Made by a program: the position numbers and the translations under genes
Assembly: GCF_037392515.1 (NCBI RefSeq)
Contig: NC_090280.1
Location: 76,892,504 to 76,956,503, forward strand
DNA length: 64,000 bases
Reading direction: 5' to 3'
Source of the DNA: Haliotis asinina
Lineage: Eukaryota > Mollusca > Gastropoda > Lepetellida > Haliotidae
In this document: positions 2,673 to 62,906 of the stretch, piece after piece
Position numbering within the stretch: position 1 is the first letter of the stretch
Layout: each line of letters opens with the position of its first letter
The notes under the pieces: generated by a model
Seen by the model: the letters and a program-made list of their open reading frames with translations, nothing else
The model's database searches: none
What the model was told of the DNA's origin: nothing

Positions 2673-3109
2673 TTCCATACCCTGGAGTGCATGTCTTCAT
2701 GTTTTTTTAATGTCTTAATGCTTTTTTAAATAATGCACAATACACTTGTTCAACAATTATTGTTAGGTTGTTGTTCCCTACTTAATTACCTGTGCATCAC
2801 AGACGAAGGACAGGTATTAATGGTCGATGTATTATGGTAATTTTGAGGGATCCTTAACTGGTGTAATGATTTTATGCGTATTTTCAAAATCCACTCATGC
2901 ATCTAAATCATCACAGCTTGGTCATCACATCTATATCACAGGCTTAGGGTAACGGACCCTGGGCCCAGTATACAACCTATTGATAACTTGAGTAATGGAT
3001 CATGCGTTGTGTTAATCGTTCTTCAGGGTTGCATAGGGTGGTGATAAAGGATGGGCAGAGGATGTTCACTAACAAAAGATGCCACAATTTATGAATCCTT
3101 ACCCGTGTC

Positions 3110-3330
3110 AGAAACTATGACCTTGAGTTGTATTCAAGCTATATGGTGGGGGTCTGTAAATCATCGAGTCCGGACCAGACAATCCAGTGATCAACAGCAT
3201 GAGCACCCATCTACGAAAATGGGATATGACGAAATGTGTCAGTTAGTATGACCGCCCGCTCCGGTTAGTTGCCTCTTACAAGCATGGCTTGCTGAAAACC
3301 AACTCTACCCAGCATCATCACGGGTCTGAT
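3110..3330 (-). repeat. SINE family B
   Basis: Minus-strand copy of the second repeat family. It has the block around GGTCTGTAAAT.ATCGAGTC, the ATCAACAGCATGAGCA block and the TTAGTTGCCTCTTAC block at its 5' end. Confidence 0.75.
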
Positions 3331-3616
3331 GGGCTTGCTAATATTGAATTCTCTCCTAGATTCTCTCTTCCCCTGTTGAACACCGCCCATATCTTACACT
3401 CGTTAAGGAAGGAGCACCGCCATTTTAACTGGGTGCTTGATGGCGATACTTGATGACAGCGCGGTAACCAATGTCGCCATTTTTTTTCCAAACAGAGAAT
3501 AGTGAGTCGCATGCATACCGCTTGATTCAGGATTTTATTGAAACACAACCATTATTGCACTGAATACATCCAAAATCTTATCACTCGCTGTTCTGACAGA
3601 ACATAAAGGTTATATA

Positions 3617-3760
3617 GTGATTGAGTGAGTATGGTTTTACGTCGCTTTTTGAAATATTCCAACAACATCACGGCGAACACCAGAAATGGGCTTCACACAT
3701 TGTACCCATGTGGGTGACAAGAGAAAGCTTTAACCACGAAGCTACCATTACCGCACTTAA
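3617..3760 (-). repeat. SINE family A
   Basis: Minus-strand copy with tail, body (CACCAGAAATGGGCTTCACA) and head remnants of the A box. The B box is decayed. Confidence 0.75.
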
Positions 3761-6848: not shown

Positions 6849-7154
6849 ACGGCTTACCTGAACGTGGGTCTCCATTAGTTTTTTCAGTCTTAAATGGGGT
6901 TTAACGTGGTGACCTCCACTGACGTCCCGTCTAAACATGGGTCTCATATATTTCCTATGTACTGTTCCATACAAAAACACAGGTTCCATGACTTGTTGTC
7001 TAAACAGGGATCTCATGAGGTCTTACACAAGGGTCTAGAGGTTTAGAGCTCATCTTTATACACGGGTCGGTTAAGTCCTTATCAAAAATGGTCTTTTGAG
7101 GTTTTGTTCATTCGCCGATCTAACGGCTTCTAGACAAAACATAAATATTGCAGT

Positions 7155-7245
7155 GAGTATGTGAGTGAGCTTTGTTTCAAGAAACATTCCAACAGTCTTC
7201 GACGTGACGAGAGAAGACTTTAACCATTGGGCTACCCCATTGCTA
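7155..7245 (-). repeat. SINE family A, internally deleted
   Basis: Antisense tail joined directly to antisense head, with the body missing. Confidence 0.55.
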
Positions 7246-7357
7246 ATGTGTCTACACCGATCTCATGAGCACACGTGAAAACACTGAACTCCTAAACGTT
7301 TGTCTTCGCTCGGCCTCATGTGTTATCTCTTCTTTTGTCGACCTGCACGTACAACTT

Positions 7358-8771
7358 TAGCTAAGATACATAGCGGTCACTATATGAAGGAACCTCCATA
7401 GACCGCAATGGTGGAAATCCTTTGTTGCACTTTCGCGCACTCGTTACGACTATTGTGCACGAAAAACTTACATGAATGGCTTCTTTGTACTTATACCTAC
7501 ATGTGCGCCCTAGTTTCATTATCAAAATATTCCAAAATAAATATTTGCAAGCCATCAAACATCTCAGGCGATCGATCGCATATGATGCGGCGCCATTTTA
7601 AATCACGTGACGCGCAGGGATTCCCTCCCTAAAATTGTAACACTTGTTCCACACCTCGGTGCTTGTTTGTGTAACAAATGTTCATACATTTTCAGATAAT
7701 TTAAAGGATTGTGTGGGGACTTTCGTTCCCAATCAAGACTGACTGACCACCTAACCCTTTCAACAACTGTTTTGAAAGGAATTGCGCTGGAGTTTTCAAT
7801 GCTTCCTACAATTATTCATTATATTGGATCCTTTCTGCCACCTTGACAGTGTATTGATATTTCTGATTACAAAACATAGTTTACTGATAAGACATATTGA
7901 ATGTAGGAACTAAATACATGTAATTAATGAGTTAACGAATTAATTATCTCTAAATCCCATTAATGCATAAAAAATAAATAATAAAAGAAAACTTTAACAT
8001 TCCTCAGTTCACATTTCTGCTGCCTTGAATATCACATTTAATATTTCCATGTTGTGTTAGGTTTCAAGCACCCAGCTTCAATCCATGCAGAATGAATGCC
8101 AATACCCTTGTTTTCCGTATCCCTAACTTGACCCTTTTAGGCTTAGGGGATTTTCCACGACTATACATGACCTGGTGTTTTCTCCCTGATGTTTTTTTCC
8201 ATGCGTCTGTCCGTCATCATTTCTGGCTCTAAAACCATTTATTACTTTTCAGCATAAATTGGAAAAATATGGATCAGGGTCTAAAGTGGTGCCTTTTGCT
8301 ATTTGCATATATCTTTCACATTTTTCTTGTTTTTTTTTTATGGAGACGATTGGACTAAGTGAAAAAGGGCAGGGTTAGTCAGTCTAACTTGGAAACGAAA
8401 GTCTCCACACAATCCTTTTAATTTTTTTCATAAAGTGTGAAAATTTGTTGTAAACAAACAGCAAGTTGTGGAACAGGTGTGTTACTATTTTAGGGAGGGA
8501 ATCCCTGCGCGTCACGTGATTTAAAATGGCGCCACATCATATGCGATCGATCGCCTGAGAAGTTTGATGGCTTGCAAATATTTATTTTGGAATATTTTGA
8601 TAACGAAACTAGGGCGCACATGTAGGTATAAGTACAAAGAAGCCATTCATGTAAATTTTTCGTGCGCAATAGTCGTAACGAGTGCGCGAAAGTGCGACAA
8701 AGGATTTCCAATATTGCGGCCTATGGAGAGCGGCATAGCGTTCATGTAGTGAACGCTATGTATCTTAATCT
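7358..8771. mobile_element. Foldback DNA element with about 400-bp terminal inverted repeats
   Basis: Left arm about 7358-7755 and right arm about 8365-8771 are imperfect inverted copies. They run from a GATACATAGCG terminus through a shared GATCGATCGCATATGATG-type core to GTGTGGGGACTTTCGT. The central 600 bp has no ORF of note. The short ORFs in the arms mirror one another and are not genes. The element is absent from the paralogous block 15940-18960, so it probably inserted after that duplication. I could not define a target-site duplication. Confidence 0.8.
8732..8759. repeat. Short perfect hairpin at the foldback terminus
   Basis: CATAGCGTTCA and TGAACGCTATG flank a 5-nt loop, found only at the right end of the foldback element. 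Confidence 0.6.
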
Positions 8772-9445
8772 ATGCTATGTCAGCATAATCTGTACAACTC
8801 TGATCATGTAATGTTGCTTGATCGGAATCTATGTAAGCATTTGAAGTATGTATGTATTAAGACTACTGAAAACTAAGAGGCACCTACCGGTATATCTGTT
8901 TAACAAGGTGGTACACAAAGTGGCCTATTACAGGGTGTAGCTGCTGACGAGCTGTGGCCGACTACGAGGAATTGCACAAGGGAGGTAACTCTAAAAGGAC
9001 TGGCTTACAGGCGTAAAGTACAATCCAACAAACTGTGACATTCAATAACCAAAATTCATATTTTCCGTTGTATTCTAACCGGGGCTTTTGAGGTTGGTTA
9101 GATGATTCATCTAAAGCGCCAGGTCTATCTGTTTACTAGTTTGAGCTGACAATAGAGACTCACAATGCCAACGATCTTACTGAAAAACAATATGCACTAT
9201 ACTATGTAAGTAAATAACTCCTGAGGCAATTATGTGTTTGTACGTAGGTCAGTACGATATTGTTTACCAACATATACTTCAGAATACAGATATGAACTGA
9301 TAAAGTAGACAGTGTTGTACAAAGTGAAAAAACCCTCTTTAAAGCACTATTCATTCGTTGGCTTGCTTGAAAATGAACGTCAGTAAGTGACGTTGCAAGG
9401 AGAATTGAGTGCAGCCGTCGGAATGTTTAGGATTTATAGATTCGA

Positions 9446-12486: not shown

Positions 12487-12662
12487 GGGCGGTGAGGTAG
12501 CCTAGTGGTTAAAGCGTTCGCTCGTCACGCCGGAGACCCGGGTTCGATTCCCCAAATGGGATACAATGGGTGAAGCCCATTTCTGGTGTCCCCCGCCGTG
12601 ATATTGCTGGAATATTGCTAAAAGCAGCGTAAAACTAAACTCACTCACTCACTCACTCACTC
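12487..12662 (+). repeat. SINE family A, full-length reference copy
   Basis: tRNA-like head with A box (GGTAGCCTAGTGG) and perfect B box (GGTTCGATTCC). A body with GAAGCCCATTTCTGGTGTC follows, then the 3' tail GCTGGAATATTGCT...GCGTAAAAC and (ACTC)n. The best preserved copy in the window, useful as consensus. Confidence 0.9.
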
Positions 12663-12980
12663 AACCCTAATCGTCATAAAAACTGGGCTGACATTACCAT
12701 GTCTGACAAAAATCAAACGGACATCACCAAATGCAAACTCAATGTGTCACTGGCTCTTAAGCTCAAAATGCTTTTGCCTCAGTATACAAGTTATGCGCAA
12801 AGCTGTATGTACTGTAGCTCTCCATTATATTTCAGCCCAAACCACGGTTGAATCCTCTTGTGCCAATATTTCACAGGCTTCAGTAGCATCAAAATATGAC
12901 ACGTGTGGAAAAATACCATTTCGTACCTTTCTCTATATTGACTCCTTTAAAAATAGATTAAAAGTAATAGATGCATCTGA

Positions 12981-15283: not shown

Positions 15284-15705
15284 GTATACTTAGGATGATG
15301 GTTAAAGTGTCCGCTCGTTACGCTGAAGATCTGGGTTCAAATCCCCACATGGCCACAGTGTGTGTAGAACGTCACTTGTTTGTCCAGACCAGACTTGAAG
15401 GTTTTCATACTTAGGACGGTGATTAAAGTGTCAACTCATCACGCTGAAGACCCGGGTTCGAATCCCCACACGGCTACAGTGTGTTAAGTATGTCACTCGT
15501 TTGTCCAGACCATACCTGAACGTTATCATACTAAGGAAGGTGTTTAAAGTGTTCGCTCGTCACTCTGAAGGCCCGTGTTCGAATCCCCCAGTGGGTATAA
15601 TGTGTGAAGCACTTCACTGGTTTGTCTAGACCAGACTTGAAGGTTACCTGATGTTGTGGTTTGGCAGGAATATTACCGGAAGTTGGCTAAGAATAATGCA
15701 ATGAG
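15284..15705 (+). repeat. SINE with three tandem tRNA-like heads
   Basis: Three units begin at about 15286, 15407 and 15528, with a 121-bp period. Each has a CATACTTAGG-type leader, a GTTAAAGTGTYCGCTCGT-type A-box region, a B box and a TTTGTCCAGACCAGACTTGAAGG connector. After the third unit a degenerate common SINE body follows (GCAGGAATATTACC). Unit 2 has an intact GGTTCGAATCC B box. Confidence 0.75.
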
Positions 15706-43900: not shown

Positions 43901-45681
43901 TGAACATTAAGAAGGGGAATTACACCTCTGCGAATTTACCTGCGGGAAGATAATACCTGCGGAAAGAAAGGCAAGATGCAAGATTTGAATCGCTTGATTC
44001 ACACATGCTGACTGAAGTGTACGATCCGATACCCAAGCTTCAAACAGTTCAAAATTAACACTGCGGTGTTCAAGATAAATACGTTGTGTATTTTGTATTA
44101 GAGAGACAGGTTTTACTTTTCGCTAGGAAGACCTCTTCCCAGCTTTTACTTTTTGCTAGAAAGACCTCTTCCCAGCTTTTACTTTTTGCTAGAAAGACCT
44201 TTTCCCAGCTTTTACTTTTCGCTAGAAAGACCTCTTCCCAGCTTTTACTTTTCGTTGGTAAGATTGCTTCCCAGGTTTTACTTTTCCTAACTTTATATGA
44301 ACATCAACACTCAAATGATCGATGAGTGTTTGAAATCAGCTGAAAAATCTCGTTCAAGATTAAACTCACAATACTAATGTTTTCCCAGGCGATATTGGAA
44401 CCGCAGTTGTCATATCCATAGGCAGACGCTCTACCGCACGGCACTGGGCCGACGAAGATTGATTATTTGCTTCTAGTTACTGTCATTAAACTGATTTTAC
44501 GCGCGCTTCAGTTATTGTTATGTAGTTTAAATGATCACCTACGTTTTAATTACCCATCATTGACATAATATGTTAGAGAAAACACTTCTTCTCGGTTTTG
44601 GTAGACAATGTAAAACCATCGGGGTTGGGAAATCCCACGGGGCTCCGCCCCTCGGGATTTCCCTCCTTCTCCGGTTATATTGTCTACCAAAACCTCGGAG
44701 GCGTGTTTCTCCTATACATGATGTATCCAGGTTACAATACAGATAGATGAAGTGTCAGAAGTGTTGTCTTTTTGAAACATGATAGCATGATAAGGGCATG
44801 CGATCTGATATATGCGCTGGTGAGCCGAAGGTCAGTGTTTTTGGGGTGTGGGTGTCATGTGGACTGAGGGTGTTGTGTACTGTGTGGAACTGCGATCCGG
44901 GTGTTTTATAACCAGGACACTTTTAAGGCAACAAGCTCACTCACTCCAGCAATTTGAAGGTGAGGGACCGATAAATATGCTTCGTCCATTGGTACAATGT
45001 GGGGAATCGAACCCGGTCTTTGGTGTGACGAGAGAAAACTTTCCTCACTAGCCTTCCCCACCGATTTCTCACGTAGAAGATGGCAAGAGAGAACTTGTTG
45101 AAATATGTAGGACATGGACATTCTCCATACTGGTCTCATGTTCACACGTTTACAACGTTTCTTGCTTCTATAATCGCAGTGACCCGTGAAAGTTCGGGGT
45201 AAAATAGGCTTTCAGCAACCCATGCTTGCCATAAAAGGCAACTATGCATGTCGTAAGAGGCGACTAACGGGATCGGGTGGTCAGCCTCGCTGACTTGGTT
45301 GACATATGTCATCGGTTCCCAGTTGTGCTGATCTATGCTCATGCTGTTGATCACTGGATTGTCTGGTCCAGACTCGATTGTTTACAGACCGCCATCATAT
45401 AGCTGGAATATTGCTGAGTGCGGCAAAAAACTAAAATCACTCATTCACTCACTCTATAATCGCAGTTCTACATCATCTTCAACGTCGCTGTGGGAGGACA
45501 GGCCTACTTCCCCGACAACCTCGTCAACGCCGCCTACCCCAAGCCATGGAAAGATGCGGACAGCACCGCGTTCTGGAACGCCAGGAATCTATGGTACCCC
45601 ACGTGGAAACCCACAGAAAACAACGGGGAGGGGGCGGCTCTGCAAGTGAACTACGTCAAAGTCTGGAAACTGAAGCCATAA
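31946..45681 (+). CDS. Secreted CBM39 + GH16 beta-1,3-glucanase / glucan-binding protein, 13 coding exons
   Basis: Exons: 31946-32042, 32407-32505, 34928-35050, 35587-35769, 36517-36620, 37763-37837, 38627-38687, 39344-39526, 40446-40523, 40720-40837, 41965-42036, 43620-43755, 45466-45681. Every intron is GT-AG and phases agree, giving 514 residues. Order: signal peptide (MHWALLVLPLAWA), CBM39 glucan-binding module (about 16-107), Thr/Pro/Ala linker (108-150), GH16 jelly-roll domain (about 168-514). The active-site motif GEIDIMES keeps both glutamates, E327 (nucleophile) and E332 (acid/base), with D329 between. It is preceded by the aromatic WPAIWMMP and YGGWP segments. Arthropod pattern-recognition relatives often lose these glutamates; here an active endo-beta-1,3-glucanase is plausible. 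Role: extracellular glucan recognition, or laminarin digestion in an algal grazer. The first exon starts after an acceptor (31937-31938), so a 5'UTR exon lies upstream, unseen. Exon 4's acceptor was chosen as 35585-35586 because the nearby CAG at 35601-35603 breaks the frame. Confidence 0.93.
32085..32280 (+). repeat. SINE family B in intron 1 of the GH16 gene
   Basis: Full set of family B blocks from TCTTAAGAGACGACTAACGGG-type start to GCTGGAATATTGTTGAGTGC; the (ACTC) tail is lost. Confidence 0.75.
32407..35050 (+). CDS. Exons 2-3 of the GH16 gene: CBM39 core
   Basis: Exon 2 encodes DAGYDLVAVHFSINADLPG and the following AGRYNVDIP. Exon 3 encodes SSWVYVQKG, LHPGDKVHYWLYAL and the NQVWTY end. 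This matches the N-terminal beta-sandwich of beta-glucan recognition proteins. The 2.4-kb intron between them holds a MITE. Confidence 0.85.
32600..33935. other. Intron 2 of the GH16 gene, proximal part
   Basis: No ORF or known repeat. Contains a TGACGTCA site at 33015-33022. Confidence 0.5.
33941..34299. mobile_element. 359-bp MITE with perfect 25-bp terminal inverted repeats
   Basis: The ends 33942-33966 and 34274-34298 are exact inverse copies (core TGCTTGACAAGTATTAGATG). The element is flanked by TA on both sides (33939-33940, 34300-34301), as expected of Tc1/mariner-mobilised DNA. No coding capacity. A second, truncated copy is at 22160-22477. Confidence 0.88.
34302..34927. other. Intron 2 of the GH16 gene, distal part
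   Basis: AT-rich; nothing recognised. Confidence 0.5.
35587..35769 (+). CDS. Exon 4 of the GH16 gene: repeat-rich linker
   Basis: Encodes SGKNT then about four 5-residue units of the type APVTQ/APATH, a HHPKTEAATQKTPSSGQN stretch and the entry to the GH16 domain (SVSFNAVPKDCDG). The units are 15-bp tandem DNA repeats, likely length-variable. Thr/Ser/Pro content suggests an O-glycosylated flexible hinge. Confidence 0.85.
35987..36152 (+). repeat. SINE family A in intron 4 of the GH16 gene
   Basis: Nearly full length. A box GGTGGGATAGCCCAATGG, B box with one inserted T, body and (ACTC)n tail. Confidence 0.8.
36700..36800. repeat. Short tandem repeat in intron 5 of the GH16 gene
   Basis: Three to four copies of a unit of about 28-29 bp built on CCCATGAGTCAACTCGTCTC. 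Confidence 0.7.
37213..37690 (+). repeat. SINE family B split by about 270 bp
   Basis: 5' blocks at 37213-37285 and 3' blocks at 37555-37690, with unrelated AT-rich DNA between. Confidence 0.6.
38207..38334. repeat. (AAAAAC)n then (AC)n/(GCAC)n microsatellite
   Basis: Compound simple repeat in intron 6 of the GH16 gene. Confidence 0.95.
38955..39272 (+). repeat. SINE family C
   Basis: tRNA-like head with A box (TGGCGTTGTGGTAAGAGTG) and perfect B box (GGTTCGATGCC). The body of about 200 bp is unlike families A and B and ends AAATACGACGTTCAACTCA. Single copy here. Confidence 0.65.
39661..39745 (-). repeat. SINE family A body fragment
   Basis: Antisense body from GCAATATTCAAGCAATATCA to GTACCTATATGGGA. 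It abuts a family B copy. Confidence 0.6.
39753..39985 (-). repeat. SINE family B
   Basis: Minus-strand copy, complete from the CACGTCGCACTCAGC tail to the CGTCGCTTCTTACAAG 5' block. Confidence 0.8.
40185..40390 (-). repeat. SINE family B, diverged
   Basis: GTCTGTAAATAATGGAGTC and GACAGCACGAGCACATG blocks remain. Confidence 0.5.
40446..40523 (+). CDS. Exon 9 of the GH16 gene: catalytic motif
   Basis: Encodes IWMMPTYDAYGGWPASGEID and the following IMESR. Both catalytic glutamates and the intervening Asp are in this one exon, starting and ending in phase 1. Confidence 0.93.
41160..41186. promoter_or_regulatory. Paired TGACGTCA (CRE-type) sites
   Basis: Full palindromes at 41161-41168 and 41178-41185 in intron 10. 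The flanking sequence (AGCATTGTGACGTCATCA) recurs at 33007-33024 in intron 2. Confidence 0.35.
41790..41880 (+). repeat. SINE family B fragment
   Basis: Fused 5' and 3' blocks with the middle deleted, ending at GCTGAGTGCGGC. Confidence 0.5.
42264..42702. mobile_element. 439-bp pogo/Tigger-like non-autonomous element
   Basis: Ends CAGTCGAACCCCGTTTATCC and its inverse (CGGGGTTCGACT-) flank a TCCGGA-rich interior. TA dinucleotides border both sides (42262-42263, 42703-42704). The terminal motif resembles pogo/Tigger ends. No transposase. Confidence 0.75.
42928..42974. repeat. (TAAA)n/(TGAA)n microsatellite
   Basis: Tetranucleotide run. Confidence 0.93.
42985..43275. repeat. Degenerate minisatellite
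   Basis: Repeating words CACTCGGACAG, CAGACACAC and GACTCACT(T/C)GAACAGAC in irregular order. The 114-codon ORF over it is a by-product. Confidence 0.75.
44098..44287. repeat. 33-bp tandem repeat, about 5.5 units
   Basis: Unit built on TTTTACTTTTCGCTAGAAAG plus ACCTCTTCCCAGC. Since 33 is a multiple of 3 an 11-residue repeat is open, but it lies in intron 12 and has no splice logic. Confidence 0.92.
44575..44715. repeat. Large imperfect hairpin
   Basis: Exact inverse arms 44596-44609 / 44679-44692 (TTTTGGTAGACAAT) and 44627-44636 / 44654-44663 (GGGAAATCCC), with a GGGGCTCCGCCCC apex and outer imperfect arms. Probably a small foldback element. Confidence 0.75.
44932..45063 (-). repeat. SINE family A
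   Basis: Antisense copy with GGGGAATCGAACCCGG B-box region and A-box end. Confidence 0.75.
45185..45455 (+). repeat. SINE family B abutting the last GH16 exon
   Basis: Complete copy ending in a CACTCATTCACTCACTC tail. Only a short TATAATCGCAG separates the tail from exon 13, so the tail occupies the polypyrimidine position of that acceptor. Confidence 0.8.
45466..45681 (+). CDS. Exon 13 of the GH16 gene: C-terminus
   Basis: Encodes FYIIFNVAVGG at the start and VNYVKVWKLKP at the end, the last strands of the GH16 sandwich. Stop TAA at 45679-45681. It begins in phase 0 after a CGCAG acceptor. Confidence 0.93.
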   Translation, partial: FYIIFNVAVGGQAYFPDNLVNAAYPKPWKDADSTAFWNARNLWYPTWKPTENNGEGAALQVNYVKVWKLKP

Positions 45682-54044: not shown

Positions 54045-55245
54045 AAACTGAACAATCTGAACAAGCTGAAAAAGCTGAACAATCTGAACATGCTGAACAA
54101 GCTGAAAAAGCTGAACAAGCTGAACAAGCTTAACATGCTGAACGTGCTGAACATGCTGAACAAGCTGAACATGCTGAACATGCTGAACAAGCTGAACAAG
54201 CTTAACATGCTGAACAAGCTTAACATGCTGAACATGTTGTACAAGCTTAACATGCTGAACATGCTGAATATGCTGAACATGCTGAACAAGCTGAACAAGC
54301 TGAACAAGCTGAACATGCTGAACAAGCTGAACATGCTGAACATGCTCAACAAGCTTAACAAGCTGAACAAGCTGAACATGCTGATCAAGCTTCACATGCT
54401 GAAAAAGCTGAACAAGCTGAACAAGCTTAACATGCTGAACGTGCTGAACAAGCTGAACATGCTGAACAAGCTGAACAAGCTGAACAAGCTTAACATGCTG
54501 AACAAGCTTAACATGCTGAACAAGCTTAACATGCTGAACATGTTGTACAAGCTTAACATGCTGAACATGCTGAACAAGCTGAACATGCTAAATATGCTGA
54601 ACATGCTGAACAAGCTGAACATGCTGAACATGCTACATGCTGAACAAGCTGAACAAGGTGATCATGCTGAACATGCTGAACAAGCTGAACAAGGTGATCA
54701 TGCTGAACAAGCTGAACAAACTTAACATGCTGAACATGCTACATGCTACATGCTGAACAAGCTGAACAAGCTTAACAAGCTGAACATGCTGAACAAGCTG
54801 AACAAGCTTAACAAGCTGAACATGCTGAACAAGCTGAAAAAGCTGAACAAGCTGAACATGCTGAATATGCTGAACAAGCTGAACATGGTGAACAAGCTGA
54901 ACAAGCTGAACATGCTGAACATGCTGAACAAGCTGAATATGCTGAACAAGCTGAATATGCTGAACAAGCTGAACATGGTGAACATGCTGAACAAGCTGAA
55001 CATGCTGAACAAGCTGAACATGCTGAACGTGCTCAACAAGCTTAACAAGCTGAACAAGCTGAACATGCTGAACAAGCTGAAAAGCTGCACATGCTCAGCA
55101 TGCTGAACATGCTGAACAAGCTGAACATGCTGAACAAGCTGAACTTTCTGAACATGCTGAACATGCTGAACAAGCTGAAAAAGCTGCACATGCTCAGCAT
55201 GCTGAACAAGCTGAACATGCTGAACATGCTGAACATGCTGAACGT
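54045..55245. repeat. 1.2-kb minisatellite of 9-bp units
   Basis: Over 120 units of CTGAACAAG or CTGAACATG, with CTTAAC variants. Units differ mainly at one A/T site. A block with TGTTGTACAAGC recurs at 54235 and 54541, 306 bp (34 units) apart, showing a higher-order duplication. Since 9 is a multiple of 3, ORFs of 100-230 codons exist on both strands with low-complexity products (LNKLNM, VQHVQL, FSMFSL); I do not call them genes. Confidence 0.95.
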
Positions 55246-55249
55246 CTTG

Positions 55250-55575
55250 GTGCTTGGGACATAATAACAAAAAGCAACATCGGCAGGGAATTACGATGGA
55301 CAGTATCAAAGAAGAACATTGCTACTTCGCCACTTGTACGATTTGACAGTGGCACTGAAACCTATGAGAGTAAGATTCAGATTTACCATCACATCGTCAA
55401 TATTTCAGCCATACCGTGATCAAAGCAAGTCATATATTAATAATATATAGAATTTGATTGTAAAATCTGTCGACACGGTGCATGAATATCACATATATTG
55501 ATATATAAACTAGTATTTTAACCACAACTAGTAACACTATTCGAGTCCATATAAAAACGATATATAGATCACCAT
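55250..55575. other. Non-coding
   Basis: Nothing recognised. Confidence 0.4.
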
Positions 55576-57264: not shown

Positions 57265-59215
57265 ATGGCAATATTTTTAAAATATGCTTCAGATATCCTA
57301 GTACCTTACCTTACAATTCTATTTAATATTATGTTTGAAAATGCATATTTTCCTGAAGCCTGGTGCGTAGGTGTTATTGTGCCCTTACATAAAAGTGGTA
57401 GTATCCATACTCCATCCAAGTATAGAGGTATATCTCTGCTGAGCGTCATGAGCAAACTGTACACTTCTATTATTAACAATAGGTTAACCTATTGGTGTCT
57501 TGTATATGGTAAAATCGTAGAGTCTCAGGCTTGGTTTCGGCGTGATTACTCCACTATTGATAACATTTTCCTTCTTCTGTAAAGAGTAAAATTAAAATAT
57601 ATGGTCTCTTTGCGGATTTTGCCAAAGCTTTCGATAGTGTTAAACATATGAAGTTGTGGTCAGTTTTAAAACAGCAGGGTGTTTCTGTTAAAATGATTAG
57701 GCTAGTACAGTCTGTATATAAATCTGTCAAAACTTATGTTAAACATAACAACGCCTTTTCTGAAAGTTTTCCATGCTCAGTCGGTGTTCGCCAGGGTTGT
57801 GTCCTTAGCCCCCTTCTATTTTCTATTTTTATTAATGAGTTGGCAGCTGAAATTGAGCAGAATTCGGGTCCAGGTATACAGCTACATCTTGATATCACAC
57901 AGTTGTTTCTGTTACTATTCGCTGACGACGTTATATTGCTTTCAGACACCATCATAGGGCTACAGAGACGTATCGATGCATTGGAGAGGTTTTCTGATGA
58001 ATATGGTCTTAACGTTAATTTAGATAAAACTAAAGTAGTTGTCTTTAAAAGGGGTGGATCTTTATCTCGGAAGGAAAGATGGTTCTATAATGGGAAAACG
58101 CTAGAATACGTCAATTCTTACAAGTATCTTGGCATTACATTTACCAGAACATTGGCTTGGTCTAGTCGTTTTATAAGTGCTTCTATTCAAGCTAAAAAGG
58201 CTCTGTTTGCAATACTACATTCTCTAAAACATATAAAGGGTGCATCTTCAGATTTATTCTTCCGCATCTTCGATGCTAAAATTGCTCCTATCCTCCTTTA
58301 CGGTGCAGAGGTGTGGGTGTTTTATCAAAATGACTATGTTGAGTCTGTTCATACTCTGGCGTGCAAGGAGTTCCTAGGAGTAAAACTAGCAATATCCAAC
58401 AATATAGCTCGTGGTGAATGTGGTCGTTTTTCTATGTACATTCAGGTGTATAAAAGGTCAATTAAGTTTTGGTTGAAATTAGTGCCTATGCCAAATTGTC
58501 GTAATCCCGAAAAGTGTTACAACATGTTGGTGCAAGCTGCTAAATCTGGAAAAGATAATTGGGCTACTAGGTGTAAGAAGTTGTTGTACAGTTTAGGTTT
58601 TGGGTATGTTTGGGAACAACAAGACGTTATTAATCCAGGTGTATTCTTATCGGAGCTCATTTCTCTCTTGAAATTTGTTCATGAACAGAATTGGCGAAAT
58701 TCACTCCAAAGCAAAACTTTCATATATTCTTGTTTTAAATCTTATCTTTCAAAGGAGTCTTATATAGAGTGTGTAAATGTAAAGAAGTTTAGATATGCAT
58801 TAGCTCGGTTCAGGTGCTCCGGTCATCAGCTTCACATTGAAACGGGGCGGTATTCAGATATTAGTCGAAATAATAGGGTGTGTAACGTGTGTAAGCTTGG
58901 CTATGTTCAGGGCGAGTTTCACCTTCTCTTAGTTTGTGAGTCTTACAAGGAGTTGAGGCAACAATATATACCTTGTAAATATTATTCCTTTCCAAATATG
59001 GAAAAATTTAACATTATAATGTCAACTTCTAATGGTGGTCTGATAAGGAACCTATCTATCTACATCTATAAAGCTATGCTCTTTAGATCAGTATCCCTGT
59101 GTTAGCTAATGCAACATTTTATTGTATGTACGCCTTGACATGTCACAGCATGTACTGTAGTCATGGGCCGATGGCCTACACTCTTGGAAATAAATGAATT
59201 GAATTGAATTGAATA
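57265..59215 (+). mobile_element. 5'-truncated LINE with reverse transcriptase, one frameshift
   Basis: Encodes the reverse transcriptase and C-terminus of a non-LTR retrotransposon, which copies its own RNA into a nicked genomic site. In order: FLKYASDILVPYLTILFN, VIVPLHKSG and YRGISLL (57280-57460), GLFADFAKAFDSV with the first catalytic Asp (about 57605-57645), SVGVRQGCVLSPLLFS, LLFADDVILL with the catalytic Asp pair, and a C-terminal CCHC knuckle (CNVC...EFHLLLVC). A frameshift near 57583 separates the first 100 codons from a 485-codon open frame (57648-59105). The 3'UTR ends in AAATAAA and an (AATTG)n tail at 59196-59214. No endonuclease remains. Clade uncertain; its tail is unlike that of the SINEs here. 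Confidence 0.9.
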
Positions 59216-60989: not shown

Positions 60990-62793
60990 GAATCTTTCAC
61001 AAAGGAGCTGCCAGTTTTTCAACTGGTTTGCTCGAAGCTTGATTATGGCTCCATCGTATATGATGAAGCCTGCAAAAGCAGCCTATTAGACTAAAGCAAC
61101 TATTAGATGCAGTCCATCATCCAGTTCTAAGACTTTGTCTTGGGTCCTTCGGAACTTCGCATGTTCACAGTCTCTACGTTGAGGCCGATGAGCCAAGGGC
61201 GCATAAAAATTATCATTACAATACATATATATTACAAAATGATATTCTAACGACTCCAACCCTACCTTTAACTGTGTCTTCAATCCCCTATAAGAGGATT
61301 TGTACAACTTTTCCCTTGTTCCGCCTCTTGGGCTCAGAATTAAACCATTCACCTCTGCTGCAGACATTAAGCTTGAAACTATATCTTCTTCTCGTTTGCT
61401 ATTTTTCGCCCCCTTGACAGTTGGTTAGACCGCACGTTGACCTAATTTTAACCACATAACCTGAAACAAATGAACTACAGTATTAGCAAGAATTTAGTCA
61501 AGAAAAAATGTAGTGCATATGAATCCTTATTTACAAATGGGTCCAAGGATGCTGGCACAGTAGCTTGTGACACTGTTATTATATCTGGAACTGTATCTTC
61601 TCGATTGCCTGAGAACCGCTCTATTTTCACAGCAGACGCTAACGCCATATTAAGAGCCCTAAAATTTATCAATACACACACTAAATATAAATATATAATC
61701 TTTTCAACTCTCTCTTGCCTTCAGGCTATTAGAAATCTTTCTTGTAAACATCCATCTTTAACTGAAATTATTGAATTGTATAATGATCTTGCTACTGGTC
61801 ATCTTGGTACTGGTCATCTTGGTACTGGTCAGTACGACATCGTCTTCCAGCCACGTAGGCATTTCTGGTAACGCCGATCTTGCTGCCAAGGCAGCACTCA
61901 ACGAATCTGTGACGCCATCTATATGTATTCCATATTCTGATTACAAAGCTAGCATTGGAACCTACATTCGTGATATGATGTAGAAGAAGTGGGACACTCT
62001 AGTAGGTATCAATAAATTACATGCAATAAAACCCTATACCGGTTACACCTACTTAGATTGTCAGCCCAGAGATCATCATGCGATCGTGCGACGATGGCGT
62101 ATGGCCATACCAGATACACTCACTAATATTTATTGAAATCCCTTGTGATGAAGACTCATGGTCAAACATGTCCTGTTTGTCTGTATGGAATATTCCATCA
62201 CAGGGGAAACCTATTTCAAATCATCGTCTATGAATGATCTTTTTACTGTCACTTGTCATTTAATTACTGCAGTTTAAAAAGAATTAGATTTGTTAAATCG
62301 TTTGTAAGACGACAAATATTTTAAGATTGGAAGTTTAAATTAGTAACTTAGATTGTCATGGGGAAGTATTGTAAAATTATTGTCCTCCAGAGAGGGTACG
62401 TAAGTCCCAAAACATTCAAAGTAAGTTAAAACTTTCATATATGTATGTGGCTAACTATGTCTAAATTGCTAACAGCTAAAGGGATGGTGAAACTCCAGCT
62501 TGGGTTCATGCAGGAAGCAAATGGACTGTAAGTCCCCATGGTCCCTAGTGTGGTGATCTACCTTCAGTTGTTGGCAATCTATAGTCTGTTATCACATTGT
62601 CTTGTTATTTCTGGTTTATATGGTTTAGATTTAATTACTAGTTTTAAATGGGTATCTGTGATATTCTAGTTGTTTCGTCAACAGGGTGTTAGTTTCTAAT
62701 TTTATTTATTTTTACAATATCATTATTAATTGTTCTCGTCACGATATGGCTGAAATATTGCCGATGTGACGATAAATATTAACTCACTCACTT
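60990..62793 (+). mobile_element. 5'-truncated LINE remnant with RNase H domain
   Basis: Several frames on the plus strand give, in order: SKLDYGSIVYDEACKS (about 61035), LDAVHHPVLRLCLGSFGTSH and SLYVEADEPRAHKN (about 61090-61205), then an RNase H-like domain (61515-61900) with TNGSKDAGT, RLPENRSIFTADANAI, FSTLSCLQAI and SSHVGISGNADLAAKAAL. The expected DGS and SDS aspartates read Asn and Thr, and there are frameshifts, so it is dead. A GTACTGGTCATCTTG-type triplication lies near 61793-61830. This arrangement suits I-type non-LTR elements that carry RNase H. The 3' end (62741-62793) is a TATGGCTGAAATATTGCCG...AACTCACTCACT tail closely resembling the SINE tails. Confidence 0.8.
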
Positions 62794-62906
62794 GATGATG
62801 TGCATTCAATCTTTTCTTTTTAAGTCAAAGATGGCCGTGGGAGGCGCCGATTGACAATCTGTGCGTAGGGCTCACTGTTGGTGAATCATATTTAATGATT
62901 TTGCAG

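Follow-up and report, generated by a model that had tools for sequence, protein, structure and literature searches.

A common tail hairpin points to an I-superfamily-like LINE clade as the candidate partner of two SINE families in Haliotis asinina

A stretch of 64,000 nucleotides from the genome of Haliotis asinina (hereafter the window; NCBI RefSeq assembly GCF_037392515.1, NC_090280.1, positions 76,892,504 to 76,956,503 of the forward strand) contains an RNase H LINE together with copies of two SINE families, SINE A and SINE B, and all three were predicted to end in the same kind of tail. Since SINEs are mobilised by LINEs whose 3′ end they share, the original prediction took this tail to point to the partner LINE of both families. 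The locus thus raises the question of whether the tail is the LINE's own end, whether the likeness goes beyond a simple repeat, and how closely this particular LINE can be tied to the elements that it might serve.

The LINE copy at 60990-62792 (plus strand), recognised by tblastn and genome matches, is decayed and 5′-truncated. With pieces of ORF2 from a relative (L045) as query, tblastn placed coding remnants with broken frames at 61023-62283, RT and RNase H included; the sequence downstream of them is 3′ UTR and extends to 62792. In L045 itself, Pfam identified endonuclease, RT and RNase H domains in ORF2 (PF03372, PF14529 and PF00078 at 57-2798, PF00075 at 2834-3748), as well as RT and RNase H in a single frame at 6854-8911. 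This is the combination of apurinic-type endonuclease, RT and RNase H that defines ORF2 of the I superfamily, and from this domain content we assign the clade as I-superfamily-like. Full-length copies measure about 6.1 kb (L033, 3335-9460), with ORF1 followed by ORF2; ORF1 pieces of L045 contain a CCHC motif, recognised by eye, and both pieces tested were without a Pfam match. When the 1.143-Gb assembly was searched with the 3′ end of the LINE (62500-62793), the window itself was recovered along with at least 39 other copies at 81-83% identity, a lower bound since scoring covered the best 40 of 5105 first-look candidates, and one further match of 44 bp comprised the tail only. Several pairs of copies are 96-98% alike over their common length.

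Some of these matches lie in larger repeats. The stretches L033 (C17) and L034 (C4) are 99.3% identical across the whole 9.9 kb, flanks included, which reflects either a segmental duplication or a small contig that was misplaced. At G000 C1:38718784-38735016 (minus strand), the LINE 3′ end is matched seven times, every 2655 bases exactly, which marks a tandem array with a LINE 3′ end inside it. A tandem array of another kind, with about 134 copies of the 9-bp unit CTGAACATG, occupies positions 54048-55243 of the window.

The tail of the window LINE (62733-62792, plus strand) reads TTCTCGTCACGATATGGCTGAAATATTGCCGATGTGACGATAAATATTA followed by ACTCACTCACT. Its stem has the 5′ arm CGTCAC at 62737-62742, read from the letters and backed by the fold of the window tail (z -2.86) and by the covariance model R1 described below, and the 3′ arm GTGACG at 62766-62771, backed by the letters and the analysis of pairs. 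Between them lies the loop region GATATGGCTGAAATATTGCCGAT (62743-62765), the portion most common to the SINEs according to the alignment and identity comparison, and the terminal (ACTC)n, evident from the letters and from a comparison of 30 loci, spans 62782-62792. The tail had been placed correctly by the original prediction; we corrected the extent of the ACTC run and added a further 3′ end of the clade on the minus strand at 55521-55368.

We found neither a LINE that stops short of the tail nor a SINE fragment inserted into its 3′ UTR. Hairpin and (ACTC)n come last in 30/30 LINE loci, with flanks that diverge beyond them; these loci are the best matches to a query that contains the tail and include the window copy (L001), while L004 and L005 have a flank in common and count as one event. 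A SINE-type stem was absent from all 16 LINE tail rows examined. Furthermore, the target-site duplication score was 8 or higher in 7/16 LINE copies vs 0/240 mismatched flank pairs (the 16 copies come from the 20 stretches L031-L050; L034 was excluded because it duplicates L033, and L035-L037 because they had no placed downstream flank). This tail is the native 3′ terminus of the LINE and no inserted SINE. A variant LINE end was seen in L024 (1441+, a locus also contained in L050 at 9219+), with the loop ATATTGCTGAAATATTGTTGA on a GTCAC/GTGAC stem, where LINE 3′ UTR sequence directly follows the hairpin and the ACTC repeat is missing.

On the SINE side, the window carries a SINE A copy with a tRNA-like head, the tail hairpin and (ACTC)n at 12490-12663 (plus strand; letters, genome matches and model R1), and a SINE B copy with the tail hairpin, an ACTC-like repeat and a 14-bp flanking duplication at 45181-45458 (plus strand, its end set by eye; genome matches and model R1). 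Pol III A and B boxes were recognised by eye in the SINE A head (TAGCCTAGTGG, GGTTCGATTCC), and ARAGORN reported zero tRNAs in the window. Both families are numerous: at least 39 other copies of SINE A exist at 93-95% identity (40 scored, the window's included, of 3729 first-look candidates), and at least 39 other near-full matches of SINE B at 92-94% (40 scored, the window's included, of 6316). In 12/12 fetched copies the SINE A tail ends in GCCGTGATATTGCTGGAATATTGCTAAAA(A)GCGGCGTAAAACTAA(A)CTCACTC or close variants, the exceptions being two changes in the 5′ arm of L058 and one in the 3′ arm of L053. Intact SINE B tails end in GACCGCCGCCATATAGCTGGAATATTGCTGAGTGCGGCGTAAAACTAAACTCACTC, and in the window SINE B tails are found, for example, near 45390 and 31631. 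By eye, the heads of the two families are unrelated and their common part begins at the 5′ arm of the stem. Among the near-full-length copies to which the duplication test was restricted (8 SINE A, 5 SINE B), SINE B scored 12-14 in 4/5 copies vs 0/20 null pairs reaching 7, and SINE A scored 7 or more in 1/8 copies, with null pairs at 1/56. SINE B is thus a retroposed element, with a defined 5′ end, an (ACTC)n end and target-site duplications that are similar in size to those of the LINE, and some of its copies are 93-98% identical to one copy, i.e. of low divergence.

Two observations concern variants of SINE A. Three tandem units of 121 bp with a SINE A-like head lie at 15286-15646 of the window, and at G000 C13:35072033 and C12:25832475 a SINE A variant carries TTCTCGCCGTGATATAGCTGG in its tail.

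As a shared microsatellite could by itself make tails look alike, the comparison of LINE and SINE tails was made with the ACTC repeat excluded. The window LINE tail scored 28 and 29 against the SINE A and SINE B tails, values reached by 0/5000 single-letter shuffles, and a LINE family consensus, drawn by eye from the 30-locus comparison, scored 23 and 24, reached by 4/5000 and 1/5000. For individual tails (window, L033, L044b and L024a), scores against the SINEs were reached by 0-3 of 2000 shuffles, and L038b stood barely above them, with 80 and 62 of 2000 reaching its score. The other LINE of the window (57265-59215 by the earlier coordinates, plus strand), with an (AATTG)n tail ending ...AATAAATGAATTGAATTGAATTGAAT, had been proposed as an internal control; the last 51 bp before its repeat scored 10 against both SINEs, which 1675 and 1737 of 2000 shuffles reached, so that it does serve as a valid control. 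The predicted likeness between the end of the LINE at 60990-62793 and both SINE tails was thereby borne out, by the letters and in the repeat-free shuffle tests, and the 3′ sequence common to SINEs and LINE extends beyond the simple repeat (4/5 LINE tails in one shuffle test).

A covariance model (R1) built from 14 LINE tails, with zero SINE rows and with repeats excluded, also recognised the SINEs. Its training alignment (A2) omits both window tails, which were kept as a test, and includes L038 4539-, a match by construction. In a search of 27 kb from 10 chosen loci, which included 5 of the 12 fetched SINE A tails, intact SINE B was found at E 4.7e-8 (the same insertion in L022 and L049, another in L038), SINE A at E 4.2e-7 to 9.2e-6 (L003 and those five fetched tails) and a damaged SINE B in L049 at E 0.1. 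In the window, the two LINE copies ranked at the top, one of them being the additional decayed 3′ end of the clade, which has this tail hairpin too (55368-55521, minus strand, 43.2 bits). SINE A and B tails made up 11/13 matches ranked 3-15 (the two exceptions are 24758+ and the LINE itself in reverse) and 2/8 matches below rank 15; the tail module of the SINE A copy (12590-12639, plus strand) was recognised at 20.0 bits (E 0.0029). At E ≤10 the model recovered about 13 of about 22 SINE-like tails in the window, 3 of them below E 0.02, and missed about 9; the weak scores belong to old SINE copies.

Alignment of LINE and SINE tails suggests that what is retained between them is a loop and the pairing beneath it. 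Our alignment A1 comprises 16 LINE and 3 SINE rows, was made with MAFFT and was not fitted to the stem; it leaves out L024 1441+ (no ACTC), L039 (broken), L011 1031+ (deletion), L029 (close to L030), L048 (close to L028) and near-identical copies. In the stem columns (7-12/38-43), 93.9% of cells are paired, compared to 5-67% in slid versions, and a larger structure pairs 87.1% of the cells. Neither the percentage paired nor the covariation score was reached by any of 500 shuffles; the count of three pairs changed on both sides was reached by 19/500, and that of further pair types by 493/500. The three SINE rows show U-A to C-G and A-U to G-C changes and the LINE row at window position 55415 shows a G-C to A-U change, but since the SINE rows are related and the changes mostly follow one LINE/SINE split, these represent few independent events. 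Stem letters thus differ between LINE and SINE with pairing kept, and loop letters are largely common, with mean identities of 0.85 (LINE-LINE), 0.71 (LINE-A), 0.75 (LINE-B) and 0.79 (A-B). Relative to shuffled sequences, folding is better for the LINE hairpin (z -2.48, -2.86) and no better for the SINE A hairpin taken alone (z -0.46, -0.08). Taken by alignment and pairing, the tail hairpin appears to be conserved across the LINE and SINE tails.

Within the LINE clade the tail is well kept. We checked 17 more LINE tails from the fetched stretches and the window: for L038 4539- and L039 6874+ the alignment to references was limited to the last 57 and 37 bp, respectively, L020 1834+ is a tail-only LINE copy, and the remaining 14/17 align further upstream, at 66-88% to a reference other than self. 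Across 11 LINE lineages, the last 48 alignment columns have a mean pair identity of 0.86 vs 0.63 elsewhere, the latter value being lowered by a ragged 5′ end (0-0.17 in the first 60 columns). Another 48-column stretch of the 3′ UTR alignment reaches 0.94, and the tail is therefore one of two conserved islands and not the sole one. The second island (about 90 bp at about 62480-62580 of the window, ...GTAAGTCCCCATGGTCCCTAGTGTGGTGATCTACCTTCAGTTG) is more conserved than the tail, with 20-column bins at 0.89-0.93 in the 11 lineages, and a search of 62250-62850, the region of tail and second island, gave nothing above the gathering score in Rfam.

Which LINE, then, would be the partner? Over the whole tail, mean identity is 0.82 among LINEs, 0.59 and 0.61 between LINE and SINE A or B, and 0.85 between the two SINEs; neither SINE tail exceeds 0.67 to any of the 16 LINE tails, and the SINEs have the CGCCG/CGGCG stem in common. 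A search of the genome for GACAGGTT followed 25-55 bases on by a SINE-type stem, an exact pattern that misses a diverged 3′ UTR, gave one match, by letters a SINE A. As a positive control, GACAGGTT with a LINE-type stem gave 5 distinct matches in 347,875 LINE-rich, partly overlapping bases. Exact-pattern searching for LINEs with a SINE-type stem yielded 17 places in the genome, of which 3 were fetched. Among the candidates considered, L063 and L064 proved by letters to be SINE A variants. L065, intermediate at 46.3 bits, was also rejected as a LINE: SINE B sequence lies further up in its 5′ flank, as extended by L066, and the best match of the L065/L066 flank to the LINE ORFs had an E of only 1.7, so that a truncated SINE B is the likeliest identity.

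The failure to find the SINE-type stem in the LINE clade implies that the donor may be extinct or unsampled, or that the SINEs altered their own stem. The prediction of a partner LINE hence stands at the level of the clade and not for this LINE family as direct source, given that identity between the SINE tails (0.85) exceeds that of either to any LINE tail (≤0.67). Our data partly support a partner that would lie in this LINE clade or in a close relative of it, either extinct or unsampled. The pair is a candidate at clade level, no single LINE tail among the 16 being near-identical to a SINE; the clade is the likely partner, and the window LINE itself is not established as the direct source.

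We consider it probable that the tail is a transposition signal and that ORF2 of this RNase H LINE clade copies both SINEs, and the common module suggests that the short elements spread by borrowing the copying enzyme of the window LINE's kin. The LINE RNA would end in a hairpin with the largely fixed loop GAUAUNGCUGNAANAUUGC on its stem, a short linker and (ACUC)n; the ORF2 protein would recognise the sequence of the loop and the shape of the stem, and target-primed reverse transcription would begin inside the ACUC repeat. Two SINEs whose heads are unrelated and whose 3′ module is the same would then be mobilised in trans by the ORF2 protein of the clade, the serving LINE lying within the clade rather than being an extinct sister. 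A loop that is kept on a stem that changes with pairing kept is the pattern that a loop-specific, stem-general reader would permit. This mode of recognition is modelled on zebrafish L2 LINEs, in which ORF2 binds the tail hairpin via the region between endonuclease and RT, and reading is specific for the loop and general for the stem; one element with a swapped stem retained about half its rate, and in UnaL2 stem changes reduce the rate (PMC4176376). We suggest only tentatively, and would not favour it at even odds, that ORF2 recognises the loop and is indifferent to the stem's letters, so that the SINE stems could drift towards a higher G+C content, a compensatory divergence under one shared reader.

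Other origins of the likeness have to be set against this reading. A chance resemblance of A+T-rich tails that happen to end in a common microsatellite is hardly credible: (ACTC)n is by itself weak evidence and L038b rises little above shuffles, yet the likeness persists when the repeat is taken away and the control LINE, albeit a single one, sits at shuffle level. It is also very improbable that the LINE is a chimera that acquired its end from a SINE. In its favour stand the abundance of both elements and the presence of two or more LINE copies in several fetched stretches; against it, the tail is terminal at every one of the 30 loci, no LINE row has the SINE stem, deep LINE lineages carry the LINE-type tail, and the tail can still be aligned where the other 3′ UTR cannot (L038 4539-, L039 6874+).

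The best match of the A and B tails is to each other, as expected if the tail were a SINE-borne module passed from A to B or from B to A, its LINE likeness an old relic and present mobilisation due to something else. We regard this as unlikely in view of the low-divergence copies (SINE B 93-98%, LINE pairs 96-98%), the duplications of similar size and the retained stem pairing. A considerably stronger contender, to which we give somewhat less than an even chance, is that another LINE lineage with the CGCCG/CGGCG stem, extinct or unsampled and related to the clade, was both source and server of the SINE tails, the observed LINE being a cousin with a homologous tail. It would account for a SINE stem and linker seen in none of the 16 sampled LINE tails, and for a search with LINE context and SINE stem that returned nothing other than one SINE A by letters. 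Against it, the SINE tails match this clade in loop, length, linker position and ACTC repeat, and that search used an exact pattern that would miss a diverged 3′ UTR, its control resting on 5 matches in 347,875 bases. This alternative overlaps with the reading that we prefer, mobilisation by the LINE clade, which places the partner at clade level only.

MetaSINE, V-SINE/RUDI and other mollusc SINEs, which we liken to ours by description only, have tRNA-derived heads and LINE-like tails, and the loop letters and end repeat of UnaL2 and ZfL2 differ from those of the LINE described here. UnaL2 with UnaSINE, and ZfL2, are of the stringent type, with a 3′ hairpin read by ORF2, as proposed for ours, a specific loop, a stem read by shape and an end repeat, but belong to the L2 clade, unlike the I-superfamily-like LINE found here (PMC4176376). 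Closer in this respect is the mosquito Gecko SINE with the I-clade LINEs MosquI and I-74_AAe, a tRNA-type SINE with an I-clade LINE 3′ end, although host and SINEs are others and the likeness is one of description, not of letters (PMC3747384). The same source mentions 58 SINEs with a partner LINE, and its Table 1 lists no mollusc, a single Protostomes row (Gecko, I-clade LINEs) and an Anolis SINE paired with Vingi (PMC3747384). Nimbus (BgI) and Ingi LINEs of gastropods belong to the I superfamily (PMC11203168, PMC10294476), to which the LINE described here is likened by its domain content. Nimb and Ingi are named as I-superfamily clades across molluscs, along with an unknown clade in one cephalopod (PMC10294476), and Table 1 of PMC11203168 has no entry for Nimbus or Ingi under Haliotis. 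For bivalves, LINE donors are given as known for just three of eight SINE families (PMC10294476). Our literature search, which did not reach some mollusc SINE papers, recognised no publication in which a mollusc SINE is matched with a LINE of the I superfamily. We therefore present a candidate new SINE/LINE pair of a kind that is already known, the mosquito I-clade pair being in print (PMC3747384).

If the reading is correct, it would provide a partner clade for two SINE families with at least 40 copies each and an I-superfamily-like candidate pair beyond insects. Furthermore, the tails form a natural series in which the loop is fixed and the stem has changed, which could be used to test how a LINE protein reads its RNA.
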